Of a stretch of DNA of 56,005 nt, positions 50,334 through 56,005 are shown piece after piece (positions within the stretch are counted from its first letter, which is position 1; every line of letters starts with the position of its first letter). Location of the stretch: the NCBI GenBank assembly GCA_003662995.1, contig QMZC01000002.1:1-56005 (forward strand), read 5' to 3'. A program made the translations under genes and the position numbers. Under the pieces are notes generated by a model. That model had not been told where the DNA came from. It made no database searches and saw only the letters and a list, made by a program, of their open reading frames with translations. The stretch comes from Archaeoglobales archaeon (GTDB lineage Archaea > Halobacteriota > Archaeoglobi > Archaeoglobales > Archaeoglobaceae).

Positions 50334-51359
50334 CTATACTCCCTCCAGAGAGCTAAGATTAACAGAGACAAAAAGATCCATGGACGTAATAGTTACAGTC
50401 CCGTACATCAGAGGGGTCTCTACACCAAACCTCAAAAGCTTGGAAGCGTTGAGATTTGTAGGATTTGGAGGGGTTTTGACAAAGACAATACAATTGTGGA
50501 CGATTTCTCTCTTCTTTCCATCTTCAATTCCATACAGAGTCACACTGATGTGGAAGGCTATCGTTTGGTCGGAATCTACAAACAAATGGTAGCGATATGA
50601 AAAGTTCGCTTTATGTGATGCACTTTCTAAGCCAAGGATGTTCCAAGGCTTCTGTATGTAGCCCGACATATTAGCGAATCCTCGTTGTTCCTGCATTCTA
50701 CGTGCTGTCCCTTTTCGCTCCAAGCTCTTTTGTTCCTATTCAATATAACCATGTTTATCGTGAAATGACTTTTGTTGTAGAGCTTGTTAGCTATAAAATC
50801 GTACTCGTAACATCCCGCCTTGGAATTTGCTTTAGCACTTCCGTTAACTACGACGCTATACAACCACACTTGATCCGTTATCCACAAACCCTCGAAAATA
50901 CTCGTGGAAAAGGATGACTGTAAATTGCTATCTTTTAGCTCGTCAAATGAAGTGTTATTCAATACACGTATAGAAACATTCTTGTTTTTTAAGTCAACTA
51001 AAAACCCGTAGTATTTGCCACCATTGAATTCATAACCCCCCCACAAATAGGTTCGTACTTGTATCCGATTCCGTAAATGAACTTGACAAGACTCTCGTTG
51101 TAGATTACGGTGGCAAGTTTAAGTTTGTTCTTTCCATTCACAAGTTCATCTGGCTTAGACTTTGTAACTACTCCTTCAGCCTCTTTTTCTAAATTCGTTG
51201 CAATTTTAAACAGGCTTTTGACGTTGATATTTTCCTGATTTCTATTGGTGATGTAACCGAAGTTGTAAAAGTTGTAATTGCAGAAAAATAATCACAGAAA
51301 AAATTACAAAAACTAAGAGAATTGCAAGTACAATGGAGATCGTAGGTTTACGCTTCATT
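50334..51359 (-). pseudogene. Frameshifted lipoprotein/anchored protein, paralogue of the next gene
   Basis: ATG 51359 opens a membrane anchor (KRKPTISIVLAILLVFVIFSVIIF), then frames change near 51265 (NFGYITNRNQENINVKSLF and on to 51050), near 51060 (at G6), and near 50680, ending ..VNLSSLEGV at 50334. The C-terminal parts align with the intact 51396-52352 protein: both have GC.EY, K.YNK..F, R.AWS..G.H.EC, and TPP.P near the ends. Three breaks make a functional product unlikely. Confidence 0.65.
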
Positions 51360-51395
51360 TTTTCAAATCTTGAATTGCCATAATCTGTACCAATT

Positions 51396-52352
51396 TCAAT
51401 TTTGCTCCCCCAGTACCGCGGTAACAGGGCCGTAGGCGTAATAATTAGTTGTTCCGTAGATCTTCACAACCTCAATTCTGTATCTCTCCTTTTCAAAGGA
51501 TGACAGTTCGTGTGGGTCTGGAGGTGTCGATAGAAATATTCGCATACGATGAGTCTCTTTTCCACTTTTGCAGTATAGCTCTACCACCAAATCGAAAGCT
51601 ATCATCTGCTTCTGTTTCACACGCACCTGCCACCGATGAAAGAAAGATACGTTTGATGGTAAATCGCTTGGAGTAATGAAATCCCATATGCTTTTTTGCC
51701 CGTAAACTACTTCACACGTTATGTTGTCTGCATACTTGCATTCAATGTGGGGTTCTCCAGCATCACTCCAAGCCATCCTGCTTTCAGGATCATTTTCAAG
51801 CACATTGAAAAAGAAATTTTCCTTGTTGTAACTTTTTTCAACAAACATACGATACTCAATGCATCCATTTCCTCTTCCAAAAGACTCAATGTTGAATTCA
51901 TACACCCAATATCGTGTAAAATTCAACCAGACACCTGGTGAAAATTCTACGAACACAAGTGAATGCACGGTGTTTGACTTCTCAGATCCTTTAGATATGA
52001 TTTCAATATTTTCAACTTCATCGGTTGAACGTACGGTTTTGTTTTTTAAATCCACGGCAATCCTGTAGATTTCTCCATTTATACCCTCTACGTTTTTGTA
52101 TTTAAGTATCCTGTAAAAAACATCAGCGCTATCGTTGTGAATGACTTCAAGAATTTTAAGAGATTTTGAATTGTTCCCGTTTAGCAATTTCTGTACCAAC
52201 CTGTCTTTCATGAGGATGCTGTTGATTTCAGTTTGTATTTCTTTCAGTTTTCCTGTATCCGCATTCACCCTATTTTCCTGTGGTTTTTCTTCAATGCAAC
52301 AGATAATCAGTGATGCTATTAGCAATATCGTTACAATAAACTTACCGTTCAT
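51396..52352 (-). CDS. Secreted lipoprotein with conserved Cys pairs, unknown family
   Basis: About 318 residues: signal peptide and lipobox (FIVTILLIASLIICC), a polar helix (about 25-55), then a beta-rich domain with scattered Cys (GCIEYR; HIECKYADNITCEVVY; LYCKSG). No family recognised. I take ATG 52352; the frame also reaches 52373. The damaged paralogue follows on the same strand. The genes belong to the downstream half of the radical SAM locus. Confidence 0.6.
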   Translation of the reverse strand: MNGKFIVTILLIASLIICCIEEKPQENRVNADTGKLKEIQTEINSILMKDRLVQKLLNGNNSKSLKILEVIHNDSADVFYRILKYKNVEGINGEIYRIAVDLKNKTVRSTDEVENIEIISKGSEKSNTVHSLVFVEFSPGVWLNFTRYWVYEFNIESFGRGNGCIEYRMFVEKSYNKENFFFNVLENDPESRMAWSDAGEPHIECKYADNITCEVVYGQKSIWDFITPSDLPSNVSFFHRWQVRVKQKQMIAFDLVVELYCKSGKETHRMRIFLSTPPDPHELSSFEKERYRIEVVKIYGTTNYYAYGPVTAVLGEQN

Positions 52353-52397
52353 GATCTTTATTCCTAATTTCATGTAATATTCGTTTAATTGCTGAAC

Positions 52398-52712
52398 TTA
52401 TACCATAATCTCTGTTGAGTCATATTTGAACACTCTATGTATTTGAAATCTTGTTCTGTTTTTGTGACTTCTCTCTGGCATATTCTTTTTTCCAATTTCA
52501 ATAATTTTCTGTACGATCTTATCAGCAATCGTCTTACTTACCTCCATTCCATCGAACTTTTCTCCCACACTTACATAGCCGACTAACATAACTGTATTCG
52601 AGGTTCTAACTCTGACTCAAGTGAAAGTTCCAATGGCTTCTTTGAAGAACCTGAAATTCGAAACTCGTACTGCCAGCCCAAATTTTTGTAGTGTTTCACG
52701 TAGTGTGAATCT
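52398..52712 (-). pseudogene. Broken small gene, unknown
   Basis: Two frames: ITVTTLEIDSHYVKHYKNLGWQYEFRISG (about 52710-52610), then after a shift near 52605 MLVGYVSVGEKFDGMEVSKT and on to TAA 52398. The pieces resemble the C-terminal halves of surface lipoproteins of this type. No start with a ribosome binding site is visible. Confidence 0.35.
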
Positions 52713-52734
52713 ATCTCCAAAGTAGTGACAGTTA

Positions 52735-53474
52735 TTAGCTTGTCTCGTTTATCTTTATCACTTCCCCTTTTACTATGTCCACAGTTGCAATAATGGTTTT
52801 CTTTGGCTCTTTTATATGTATATGTAAACGTCTACCAACAGTTTTCCCTCACTCTGTTTTGTGACTTCTGTGACTTCGTATTTCTTACTTCCAATTTTCT
52901 CTTTTATCCTTGGGTCGTTCAGTGCTACCTCTTTTGGTGGGATCAACGACTTGTAAACGTAAACTATCCATCCATTGATGGTTGTATTATGCAATTTTTG
53001 GTTTTCTGGAGTTAGGTCGTGGACCCACACATTTATTATTTTACTACCTGTTTTTGGGTCTATGGTAATATCCCACGTTCCAATTTGCATCTCTGGTTTT
53101 TCTTTGAGTTTCTCAAATTCTGTATTGATCTCATCTACTTCCTTTTTAAGCTCTAAATCTTCAATTATGTTTATTGTCCATCCATCGATCTTCATTCCAT
53201 TGAATTTTTCGTTTTCTGGTGTAAGTTCCCACACAAAAATGTTAATTCTCTTTTCTGCCTCATCTACTGACCATCTGGTTGTGCCTATTTTATTTATCGC
53301 TTCGGGTTCAAGGAATAGATGTTCTATTTCAGACTTTATTTTTGGTAGAAGTTCTTTTTTATTGCTTTCTTCTTTTTTCTCATTTGGCTGCTTTACTATG
53401 AATATTGCTATACTCAAAATTGCCACTACAAGAATACTCATTACTAACACTTTTCTCTTTAATACCTTTTTCAA
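52735..53474 (-). pseudogene. Membrane-anchored three-repeat protein, frameshifted near its end
   Basis: An N-terminal anchor helix (VLVMSILVVAILSIAIFIVK) is followed by three copies of a 50-residue beta unit: RWSVDEAEKRINIFVWELTP...IDGWTINIIED, TWDITIDPKTGSKIINVWVHDLTP...INGWIVYVYKS, and YEVTEVTKQSEGKLLVDVYIY. The frame stops at 52812; a one-base change there continues the third unit as KEPKKTIIATVDIVKGEVIKI to TAA 52735. It starts at TTG 53474 with GGAG upstream, or at ATG 53441. It is surface-exposed, with no recognised family. Confidence 0.55.
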
Positions 53475-53497
53475 CTCTTTACATCTCCTACATCAAA

Positions 53498-54137
53498 TTA
53501 TGGATAACAATTAACACTATACACATTACAGTTCTTGTCTATCTCAAAACATACAACTCTGTCACTATACATAGTTCCACTACAACTTAATATGCCTCTT
53601 ACTTTTTCTATTCTAACTTTTGTATTTTCTACACTTGTACCACAGGGCATTTGCCAGTCACCTGGCCTAATGTCAAGATTATCGTACTGAAAAAAACTTC
53701 CAATTACTGAAATTCGACATGTCACCTCCTAAATGCTCTGCACATATAGAATGTCCAAAAGACAATGAATTGTTAACAACATTTGCTATATATATTGGCT
53801 TATTCCAACCATATATTTCCATATAACAATATTCTGGACAGCCACTTTTCTCTCTCCAATAGCACTTACTCAACACACTGTAAAATCCATAACTTTGACC
53901 AGCCCTTGCAAATCTTATTATAGCATTAGTAAGGCACAAAGCATTTTTCCAACTACCACTTCCTCCATAACAGTTAGATTGGCCAGATCGATAATGATAT
54001 ATTGGAAAGTTAATGTATGGTCCAGAAGTGTAGCTACACTCATTCCAGCAATGGAAATACGTCTTCTCCCTTACCTTATTCTGTTTCGCCCTCCACTTTT
54101 CCCACCTCTTGTTTATCTGCCTTCTAATCTCACACAC
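53498..54137 (-). pseudogene. Cys-rich protein of the radical SAM locus, in two frames
   Basis: Frame 1 (GTG 54137 on) gives KTYFHCWNECSYTSGPYI, SNCYGGSGSWKNALCLTNAI and CYWREKSGCPEYCY and stops at 53679. Frame 2 takes over near 53697, inside a T7 run (A7 on plus), and gives YDNLDIRPGDWQMPCG and ILSCSGTMYSDRVVCFE to TAA 53498. Together about 210 residues with about 14 Cys. The joint is seamless if one base of the T7 run is removed. No signal peptide is seen. A faint resemblance of WKNALCLTNAIIRFARAGQSYG to transglutaminase-like cores is speculative. It is the likely substrate or partner of the radical SAM enzymes just upstream. Confidence 0.5.
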
Positions 54138-54152
54138 ACAACATCCACAGTA

Positions 54153-54959
54153 TCACCACCTCAAATACCTACAACAACTGTCGAAGGGGTTGCCAAATTC
54201 TCTCCTTCTAAGAACCTCCTTTAATGGCTGTGGATACCTTCCGAGAACTTTTTGATTTCTCGGGCAATCCCAGTACCTCAGATCAGGCGTTACTGCAATT
54301 CCGCAAATACCAGCAACACAGCCAGTCTCAACGCAAGTAGTAGGGGTGATTACGTACTTACTAGCGTATTCCTTGACTTCCAACCACTTCGTAAAGCTTA
54401 CAGCCTTCTTAGACTTCCCGAATGGCTGGTATAGAGTTATGTTTAGCATTGTGCAGCCGTACTTTCTGCAAAGGTCGATGACATGGTCGATACAATGCAT
54501 GTTTTCTTTTGTTAGAGTAAAACCAATGGATCGTCTAATTCTGTGTTTTTGTAAGCATTTAAGAGCTTTAATCGCTCTGTCGTAGCTACCCTTTCCACGT
54601 ATCCTGTCGTGGGTCTCTCTGTCTCCATCTATGCTCACCTGAATTCCATCACATTCTTCAAACACTTCGATGTATTTTGGTACAAGCATACCATTTGTGC
54701 TGAGCACTATTCTGCCCTGAAGATCTCTTATGAGATTACATAACTCTTCAAATTTGGAATACATCAGAGGCTCACCACCGCCCAAGATTATGGTGTAATC
54801 ATCGAGTGGAAAGTCGGTGGCAAGAAAATCTTCGCAAATCCTCTTTACAACATTCAGTGGGATCTCACCTCTCTTGCCGTCGTACTGCTTGAAATAGCAG
54901 TGTTTACAGCTTAGCTGGCATGCAGAAATTACGTGGAGATTTAGCCAGTTCTCAACCAT
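54153..54959 (-). CDS. Radical SAM / SPASM-type maturase
   Basis: 268 residues. The radical SAM cluster motif is CQLSCKHC (Cys 14, 18, 21), with GGGEPLMY near 60-67 for SAM binding. The C-terminal CVETGCVAGICG ... YWDCPRN ... DSCCRYLRW resembles a SPASM/twitch auxiliary-cluster region, as in enzymes that modify peptides (PqqE, sactipeptide maturases). The frame stops at TGA 54153, but the same frame continues YCGCCVCEIRRQ, like a normal SPASM end (..YCGGGC..), so the stop may have truncated it. It overlaps the upstream gene closely (gap 1 nt). Confidence 0.85.
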   Translation of the reverse strand: MVENWLNLHVISACQLSCKHCYFKQYDGKRGEIPLNVVKRICEDFLATDFPLDDYTIILGGGEPLMYSKFEELCNLIRDLQGRIVLSTNGMLVPKYIEVFEECDGIQVSIDGDRETHDRIRGKGSYDRAIKALKCLQKHRIRRSIGFTLTKENMHCIDHVIDLCRKYGCTMLNITLYQPFGKSKKAVSFTKWLEVKEYASKYVITPTTCVETGCVAGICGIAVTPDLRYWDCPRNQKVLGRYPQPLKEVLRRREFGNPFDSCCRYLRW

Positions 54960-54960
54960 C

Positions 54961-55881
54961 TCAATTCTCTCCTCTTTTCCATCTCCAGCTTTTTGTTATG
55001 TCTACTCCCCCATACGTTCTTCTAACCTCATACTGTACCATCTCTCTCGGTAAAAACGCGTTTAGGTTATCTGGATCAGGAAATATTCGGTAAAAGTAAC
55101 GTGAAGCTATTTTTCCCATCCTATTTACGTTTCTCAAATATCGTTCTAATTGATGTTTATCGTTGGGCTCTCTGATCGGGTACATCATTTTGATGATGAA
55201 ATCTGGATTTATTTCGTGCAGAAGTTTGCACATTTTCTCGAAAATAATCTCATTTATGGCTGAAAAGAGGATTATAGGAACTCCAATTAAACCTTCAAAA
55301 GTTTCAGTGGCTAATTTCAGTGCATCTATTACATGCCGATTGCTGTAGCCTCCAGTATACCACTTGTGCCACTCATCGTCTATATTGCGGAAGGATATGT
55401 CGATTCTATCGAGATTCAACTTGTTAACTTTTTCGATGAAGTTCTCGTCGATAAGATATCCGTTCGTCTCAAGACTGATCGTATAATCGGTTTTTCTTTT
55501 TAGACTCGCAATCAATTTGAGCACTTCTACTTTTTGAAGTAGCGGTTCTCCTCCACTTATCACAAACAGTGTAGGTAGGGGCACATCTAAATGCATTAAG
55601 TTTGACGAATCAATTATTTCATTGATGGATACAGTTATTGGCATCGCTTTGTTGAGAGGTTGAAACTTGTTGGTACACCACTTGCAATCCCAGTTACACC
55701 CCCATAACTTAATATCAAGTATCTGAAATACTCCATTCACAGATCTGTACAAAAAAGGGTAGATAATCAGCTCATCGTTATTCTCAAAAAACTTATTTAG
55801 GTTGGTAAGATTAAACGGTGGTATACCAACTATTGCAGCACTGAGGGCGGCAGTGGTTTTAACGAAATTTCGCCTTGACAT
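54961..55881 (-). CDS. Radical SAM protein with a Tat-like N-terminus
   Basis: About 306 residues. The start is MSRRNFVKTTAALSAAIVGIPPF, which matches a twin-arginine signal (S-RR-x-F-x-K plus hydrophobic stretch). The radical SAM motif CNWDCKWC (Cys 62, 66, 69), GGEPLLQ near 111 and ETNGYLID near 142 follow. It resembles the pyruvate-formate-lyase-activating branch. Radical SAM enzymes normally act in the cytoplasm, so the signal is odd. ATG 55881 is preferred over GTG 55890. Confidence 0.8.
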   Translation of the reverse strand: MSRRNFVKTTAALSAAIVGIPPFNLTNLNKFFENNDELIIYPFLYRSVNGVFQILDIKLWGCNWDCKWCTNKFQPLNKAMPITVSINEIIDSSNLMHLDVPLPTLFVISGGEPLLQKVEVLKLIASLKRKTDYTISLETNGYLIDENFIEKVNKLNLDRIDISFRNIDDEWHKWYTGGYSNRHVIDALKLATETFEGLIGVPIILFSAINEIIFEKMCKLLHEINPDFIIKMMYPIREPNDKHQLERYLRNVNRMGKIASRYFYRIFPDPDNLNAFLPREMVQYEVRRTYGGVDITKSWRWKRGEN

Positions 55882-55882
55882 C

Positions 55883-56005
55883 TTAACCACTGATCAGCAA
55901 GAAATCCCCAATCTTTAGATTGTTGGGATGAATTGCGTCCAATCCTAAAACTTTTTCCTCAACAAATAACTTTGAGTGGGTGGGGCATTTAGCGCTCTGC
56001 GCTAA
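55883..56005 (-). CDS. 3' end of an unknown gene at the window edge
   Basis: Forty codons open from the right edge: AKCPTHSKLFVEEKVLGLDA and IHPNNLKIGDFLLISG, then TAA 55883. Only the end is visible and I do not recognise the family. Its stop overlaps the start of the radical SAM gene, so it is the upstream member of the same operon. Confidence 0.5.
   Translation of the reverse strand, partial: LAQSAKCPTHSKLFVEEKVLGLDAIHPNNLKIGDFLLISG

Follow-up and report, generated by a model that had tools for sequence, protein, structure and literature searches.

A partly decayed radical SAM locus of an Archaeoglobales archaeon and its putative Trp-motif substrate

Introduction

What might two adjacent radical S-adenosylmethionine (SAM) enzymes modify when the gene right behind them encodes a Cys-rich protein of no known family? 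The question is raised by the minus strand at the end of contig QMZC01000002.1 (Archaeoglobales archaeon, assembly GCA_003662995.1), of which a stretch of 56,005 nucleotides, here called the window, was analyzed. The locus comprises a radical SAM gene with a start resembling a twin-arginine translocation (Tat) signal (Tat-rSAM), a second radical SAM gene of the twitch/SPASM type (rSAM2), a Cys-rich open reading frame (ORF) whose Cys-rich domain we call CysR, an anchored repeat protein, a lipoprotein and a broken paralogue of that lipoprotein. The original prediction, made from the sequence, had named all of these genes, the last two as paralogous surface lipoproteins, and had proposed a locus for maturation of a protein or of a ribosomally synthesized and post-translationally modified peptide (RiPP). 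On balance, we favor the reading that the locus represents a decayed form of an archaeal radical SAM system for protein modification, in which rSAM2 would cross-link a W-x-D/N segment of a leader-bearing substrate. A literature search, which missed most subscription journals, found no description of such a system, and a survey of archaeal RiPPs names ranthipeptides and sactipeptides without mention of cyclophanes (PMC12144867).

Results

Gene order and the Trp motif in other archaea

Relatives of rSAM2 (E<=1e-45) are present in 15 of 394 genomes of the wider phylum, the window's genome counted, and the named contigs that carry them include GoM-Arc1, archaeon Yes46-13, Methanoculleus and Archaeoglobus sp. 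JdFR-32. Detection required an alignment of relatives, as a scan of the genome contigs with the single rSAM2 sequence gave no match. Among the 57 genomes of the order, G002 has pieces of Tat-rSAM, of rSAM2, of the repeat protein and of the Cys-rich gene (its tail) within ~1.1 kb and in the order of the window; fuller copies lie elsewhere in the phylum, in GoM-Arc1, Methanoculleus and others. Synteny with both radical SAM genes, which the original prediction had proposed to look for, is thus conserved, with intact copies in other archaea. Two arrangements recur. In type A, Tat-rSAM, the adjoining rSAM2 and a leader-bearing putative substrate follow one another (window, L075, L188, L189 and L190); L076 is of type A without an adjacent Tat-rSAM. 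In type B, rSAM2 is accompanied by a P-loop protein and a leaderless putative substrate (L025, L175, L187, L108 and L210), the front of the substrate being deleted in L077, and TolB-like or repeat proteins lie near many of these loci. The P-loop family (L210:4305-5327 and homologues in L025, L077, L108, L175 and L187) has a weak CbiA-like match and stands between rSAM2 and the substrate, or directly ahead of the substrate, in all type B loci. In some loci a third radical SAM gene stands behind a second rSAM2 copy (L075:11252-12163 and L191:965-1246).

The leader of the window's Cys-rich ORF matches those of six relatives at z = 9 to 15 against shuffles. Its consensus in the Tat-rSAM clade, INKxRWERWRAxQ..REKTYFYCW, stands ahead of Trp triplets; the leader is conserved in the window and these six relatives, and the core behind it is variable. 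Directly behind rSAM2, or behind the intervening P-loop gene, the ORF starts with tandem W-x-[DN] or W-x-[DNE] triplets: WGDWSNWSD in L188, WHDWSD in L189, WNDWSD in L075, WNNWGNWGD in L076, WGDWGNWSD in L025, WSDWGNWAN in L175, WSNWGDWAN in L108, WGEWGDWSD in L210 and WAEYAD in L187. Longer stretches of the substrate front are exemplified by ...REKSYFFCWGDWSNWSDYCED in L188, MGWGEWGDWSDYCED in L210, MGGGGWSDWGNWANCC in L175 and MGWGDWGNWSDVPC in L025. The L188 and L210 proteins have core and C-terminal domain in common at 75% identity across types A and B, and only one of the pair has a leader and Tat-rSAM, the other being without both. Behind the L175 triplets lies a domain with 58% identity to the Cys-rich protein of the window, and the closest comparable copy, L183, is multiply frame-shifted and has WNNWGQWSNW at the core position.

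We compared how often the pattern W.[DNE]W.[DNE] occurs in a nearby ORF on the same strand. It was present at 11 of 19 rSAM2-family loci and at 1 of 53 other radical SAM loci (Fisher p=2.6e-7), a p value that is optimistic because related loci are not independent. Within the first 80 residues, the motif was found in 13 rows among 1767 surveyed ORFs, and 11 of the 13 are rSAM2 neighbors, although some of these 11 are the same gene fetched twice. A blind search of the DNA of the 394 genomes for three spaced Trp codons gave many unrelated matches, as well as matches near rSAM2-family genes in seven genomes: G000 (C109), G007, G009, G136, G176, G187 and G314. Motif matches in G196 and G104 were set aside, as no rSAM2 lies beside them.

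The putative substrates measure 130-210 residues, and in intact relatives the core is followed by a Cys-rich domain of ~90-180 residues. They are therefore unlike a short RiPP peptide that is released from its leader, since a large domain trails the core; later cleavage is possible. For searching and folding only, the window's Cys-rich ORF was read through its frame change, and in this numbering C68 and H129 of CysR are invariant. A papain- or transglutaminase-like fold, our first guess from the invariant Cys and His, was neither supported nor excluded: folding of the protein alone failed (mean predicted local distance difference test score, pLDDT, 34), and no sequence relatives were found in Pfam or the PDB. 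A scan of viral contigs with the Cys-rich family gave no match. CysR homologues also occur in 10 loci without rSAM2, and there the tandem Trp motif is absent. Homologues away from radical SAM genes had been named in advance as counting against a maturation locus; formally they do so for the CysR domain, but with the motif missing there they support a modular reading. For this reason modification most likely falls on the short Trp segment at the N-terminus and not on the CysR domain. The Cys-rich protein thus stands as the putative substrate, on the strength of intact relatives, gene order and the division into leader and core, and what shifts from the original prediction is the target within it.

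Both enzymes are likely competent, to judge from the retained cluster motifs and from the C-terminal cysteines of rSAM2, which are invariant in its relatives. The rSAM2 gene starts 1 nt past the Tat-rSAM stop codon; its product contains CQLSCKHC and GGGEP, and C209, C214, C232, C262 and C263 are invariant across 11 aligned members. It has, then, the CX3CX2C motif and C-terminal SPASM/twitch cysteines that are expected of triceptide enzymes. It is 63-68% identical to its counterparts in L075, L076, L188 and L190, and in the tree the type A genes and the window form one clade of 6 (support 100/99). Tat-rSAM, which co-occurs with leader-bearing substrates, has CNWDCKWC (CX3CX2C) and a twin-Arg start, MSRRNFVK, and its C-terminus is without auxiliary-cluster cysteines; ATG 55881 is a likelier start than GTG 55890. 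It is 43% identical to the copies in L190 and L188, 47% to that in L075 and 51% to that in L189, and a remnant persists in G002. The motif SRRxFxK is present in the window, G002, L188 and L190, with RH instead in L075, and Pfam TAT_signal scores 21.6-21.7 bits on the Tat-rSAM copies (window 21.6), just below the 22.7 cut-off. Because the twin-Arg start is retained in diverged copies and the window's genome has two TatC genes, export or membrane targeting of Tat-rSAM is possible. No curated NCBIfam cut-off is reached by Tat-rSAM, whose best profile, MoaA, falls far short.

Several observations weigh against cross-linking of a Trp segment by rSAM2. The core in the window is a single triplet. L190 has both enzymes and a leader, and its core, CTPPPSPWTC, is without W-x-D, whereas in L179 a Trp-rich N-terminus, WWDWDVSEV, has no rSAM2 nearby. 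Contig ends truncate several of the loci in which the motif is missing, and most of the compared sequences are metagenome assemblies. Finally, rSAM2 scores below the cut-off of every curated NCBIfam model, including those of cyclophane formers (YhhB 60/445 bits, GrrM/OscB 52/310, FxsB 53/370); its best curated scores are to the NirJ, AhbD, ScmE and ACGX models, and the heme-pathway equivalog cut-offs likewise lie far above its scores (NirJ 82/515 bits, AhbD 81/500 bits). The L190 gene (L190:1826-2554) is otherwise a type A substrate with a leader and a Pro/Cys-rich core, which points either to a different core chemistry or to relaxed specificity.

The copy in the window

The enzymes of the window look intact, and frame changes occur in most of the non-enzymatic genes (Table 1), in line with the suspicion that the locus is partly broken. 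In the Cys-rich ORF, one frame change lies at a T run near 53690 and a second is probable close to the start, at a GT repeat; the C-terminal frame of the repeat protein is broken near 52812, and the second lipoprotein paralogue is also affected. G002 independently carries a shifted Cys-rich tail, CFEIDKDGNVYYIEC, just before the repeat protein, and therefore the other-frame tail belongs to the Cys-rich gene. Since similar damage recurs in G002, G003, G007, G168, G223, G314 and the second L075 copy, the system seems to be accessory and quickly lost, although assembly error is possible for single changes. With the substrate gene frame-broken and one triplet left, an intact product is probably no longer made in this genome, unless the frame changes are assembly errors.

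Table 1. Features of the minus-strand locus at the contig end, in window coordinates
Feature	Positions	Strand	Remark
Upstream-gene fragment, C-terminal 40 codons, running off the contig end	55883-56005	minus	
Tat-rSAM	54961-55881/55890	minus	Pfam Radical_SAM, 69.8 bits
rSAM2	54153-54959	minus	Pfam Radical_SAM, 82.9 bits
Leader VCEIRRQINKRWEKWRAKQNKVREKTYFHC, then residual core W-N-E	54036-54137	minus	Leader match to six relatives
Cys-rich ORF	53679-54137, other-frame continuation to 53498	minus	
CysR domain of putative substrate	53498-54036	minus	<=59% identity to homologues across phylum
Anchored repeat protein	52812-53474	minus	Adjoins or is fused with CysR in many genomes
Out-of-frame remnants, including repeat-protein continuation IKEPKKTIIATVDIVKGEV	52398-52811	minus	In frame in L183
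Lipoprotein, lipobox LIICC	51396-52373	minus	
Broken lipoprotein paralogue, several frames	50334-~51360	minus	

The repeat protein had been described as anchored and three-repeat. An N-terminal transmembrane helix and two confident beta-beta-alpha-beta repeats are predicted, and the third repeat is incomplete, with a frame-broken C-terminus behind it. The model is of modest confidence (mean pLDDT 66, repeats ~75-90), and its sole fold-search match is a weak one, to the alpha-lytic protease pro-region (Foldseek E 0.024, probability 0.96). The repeat family has no sequence match to solved structures and no meaningful Pfam match, and no protease gene was recognized beside the repeat protein in the window. 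The weak pro-region match, together with fusions of CysR and repeat domain, suggests that the repeat protein may be a chaperone or inhibitor partner of CysR. Such fusions were seen in genomes without rSAM2 (L180:4381-5118, L181:8509-9938 and L185:9045-9782); the L180 and L181 proteins start with a signal anchor.

Of the two paralogous surface lipoproteins that had been called, the first has a lipobox; the second is split over frames and starts with a membrane anchor that is without the lipobox Cys. Across the 57 genomes of the order, the only relative of the lipoprotein is its own paralogue, so the place of the lipoproteins in a conserved unit falls away; display of the product at the cell surface, which had been predicted from them, is hypothetical. 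As had been noted, the non-enzymatic parts belong to no recognized family, the lipoprotein, too, being without a significant Pfam match. The contig ends at position 56005 and is closed by a palindrome, TTAGCGCAGAGCGCTAA, at 55989-56005, possibly a repeat that interrupted assembly. The G+C content of the locus (0.381) matches that of the rest of the window (0.388).

Provirus and phage relatives

Relatives of rSAM2 (~35% identity) lie directly ahead of a large ORF in two provirus-like elements. One is in the window's own genome (contig C109; L029:3314-7029), where the large ORF starts with MGGWGDWSGDWSGDWSDWSDWATDW and has a weak match to a phage head-protein family; the other (G007:C20; L028:7093-~9740), with an ORF starting with MTWSDWSGDWSGDWSDWSDW, includes an integrase/resolvase in its stretch. 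Phage contigs of IMG/VR (L038:4864-6825, L039:2680-5936 and L040:4795-6825) encode fibre-like proteins that bear DWSGDYSD or (HSD)8-YSN and end in Cys-x3-Cys repeats, followed by one or two rSAM2 relatives (31-36% identical) and a further radical SAM gene. From these arrangements the phage fibres are apparently modified by radical SAM enzymes. A search of phage and plasmid records returned only distant radical SAM matches.

Other explanations of the locus

In an alternative that we consider unlikely, rSAM2 would make thioethers, as in sactipeptides or ranthipeptides, linking cysteines that flank the core or lie in CysR to neighboring residues, and the Trp motif would be a recognition element. 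In its favor, most leader-type substrates have cysteines flanking the core (FCWGDWSNWSDYC), the C-terminal domains are rich in Cys, the phage relatives lie behind Cys-x3-Cys repeat fibres, and there is a weak match to the PapB ranthipeptide model (66/340 bits). However, the immediate core of L076 has no Cys, the flanking cysteines do not keep a common register, the element that repeats invariantly is W-x-[DN], and the CysR domain is present in loci without rSAM2. It is less probable still that the two enzymes together assemble a cofactor, protein-derived or heme-like, for the Cys-rich protein, comparable to the roles of NirJ and AhbD in tetrapyrrole synthesis. Although NirJ and AhbD are the best curated profiles for rSAM2, and MoaA for Tat-rSAM, the scores are far under the cut-offs (82 against 515 bits; 61 against 325), no cofactor enzymes were recognized in the neighborhoods read, and the partner ORFs keep the Trp motif while the C-terminal domain varies.

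Two further explanations appear very improbable. The broken copies listed above and the occurrence of CysR without rSAM2 would suit chance neighbors in an eroding island, with no joint function, but the same order in divergent archaea, the leader match and the motif association all argue against it. The C-mannosylation motif is W-x-x-W, as which W-x-[DN]-W can also be read, so the Trp repeats might serve another modification, with the rSAM2 target elsewhere; yet the motif tracks rSAM2, one phage version consists of His-Ser-Asp repeats, and no mannosyltransferase was seen in the loci read.

Discussion

Cyclophane-type cross-linking by rSAM2 is suggested by the tandem W-x-D/N triplets, which fit the known three-residue formers, and by the repeats of the phage relatives. 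Enzymes that form three-residue cyclophanes bond an aromatic ring to a C-beta two positions further along; in the case of OscB, the bond runs from Trp C7 to the C-beta of Asn or Asp at i+2, and related enzymes act on Tyr or His rings (PMC11002830). By analogy, we infer that rSAM2 would recognize its substrate through the leader in this clade and form intramolecular cross-links in the segment right behind it, each bond running from a Trp (or Tyr or His) ring to the beta-carbon of Asp or Asn (sometimes Glu) two residues on, in tandem triplets. The outcome would be a rigid, stapled N-terminal rod on a folded Cys-rich protein. Tat-rSAM, which is specific to the clade with leaders, may act as a second modifying enzyme, and the repeat protein may be a membrane-anchored partner of CysR, possibly acting like a pro-region. 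Radical SAM enzymes depend on cytosolic SAM and reductant, and the locus raises the question of why one of them should retain a twin-Arg start.

The signature spans several archaeal lineages and recurs in a provirus protein and in fibre-like phage proteins. We tentatively propose, as a possibility that we hold with less confidence than the reading of the locus itself, that a single family, found in archaea, in their proviruses and in phages, introduces staples into tandem aromatic-x-Asp/Asn repeats that lie terminally on folded proteins of the cell surface or the virion, making cyclophane rods as protein parts, in archaea with a second, Tat-signal radical SAM enzyme. Should this chemistry be borne out, archaeal and viral proteins would be using cross-linked Trp rods as a structural device, and the intact copies provide a directly testable enzyme-substrate pair.

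Judged by its sequences, the system lies outside the curated families and resembles a cyclophane-forming RiPP system with protein-sized substrates. The alpha-lytic protease pro-region is a likeness of the repeat protein's fold only. For the enzymes of the closest curated profiles (NirJ, AhbD, ScmE and the ACGX system), we know of no W-x-[DN] partner or neighborhood of this kind. QhpD, a radical SAM enzyme that makes Cys thioethers in the leader-bearing small subunit of quinohemoprotein amine dehydrogenase, is similar in that it cross-links a leader-bearing protein subunit and not a short peptide; it differs in its thioether chemistry, its known dehydrogenase subunit and its lack of Trp triplets. 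The nearest parallel is offered by the triceptide or three-residue cyclophane enzymes (XncB, OscB/GrrM, MscB, YhhB and HaaB), in which, as here, a SPASM/twitch radical SAM gene lies beside an ORF with tandem aromatic-x-Asp/Asn triplets. The adjacent precursor with aromatic-x-acceptor triplets is present in relatives, and the window keeps W-N-E only. Unlike those systems, the archaeal one reaches none of the curated models, places its triplets N-terminal to a Cys-rich domain in a protein-sized substrate, includes a second, Tat-like radical SAM gene or a P-loop gene, and has an archaeal and viral distribution. Radical SAM enzymes that form cyclophanes are known to act on short bacterial peptides; in these archaea, that sequence signature is found at the N-terminus of larger, Cys-rich proteins.

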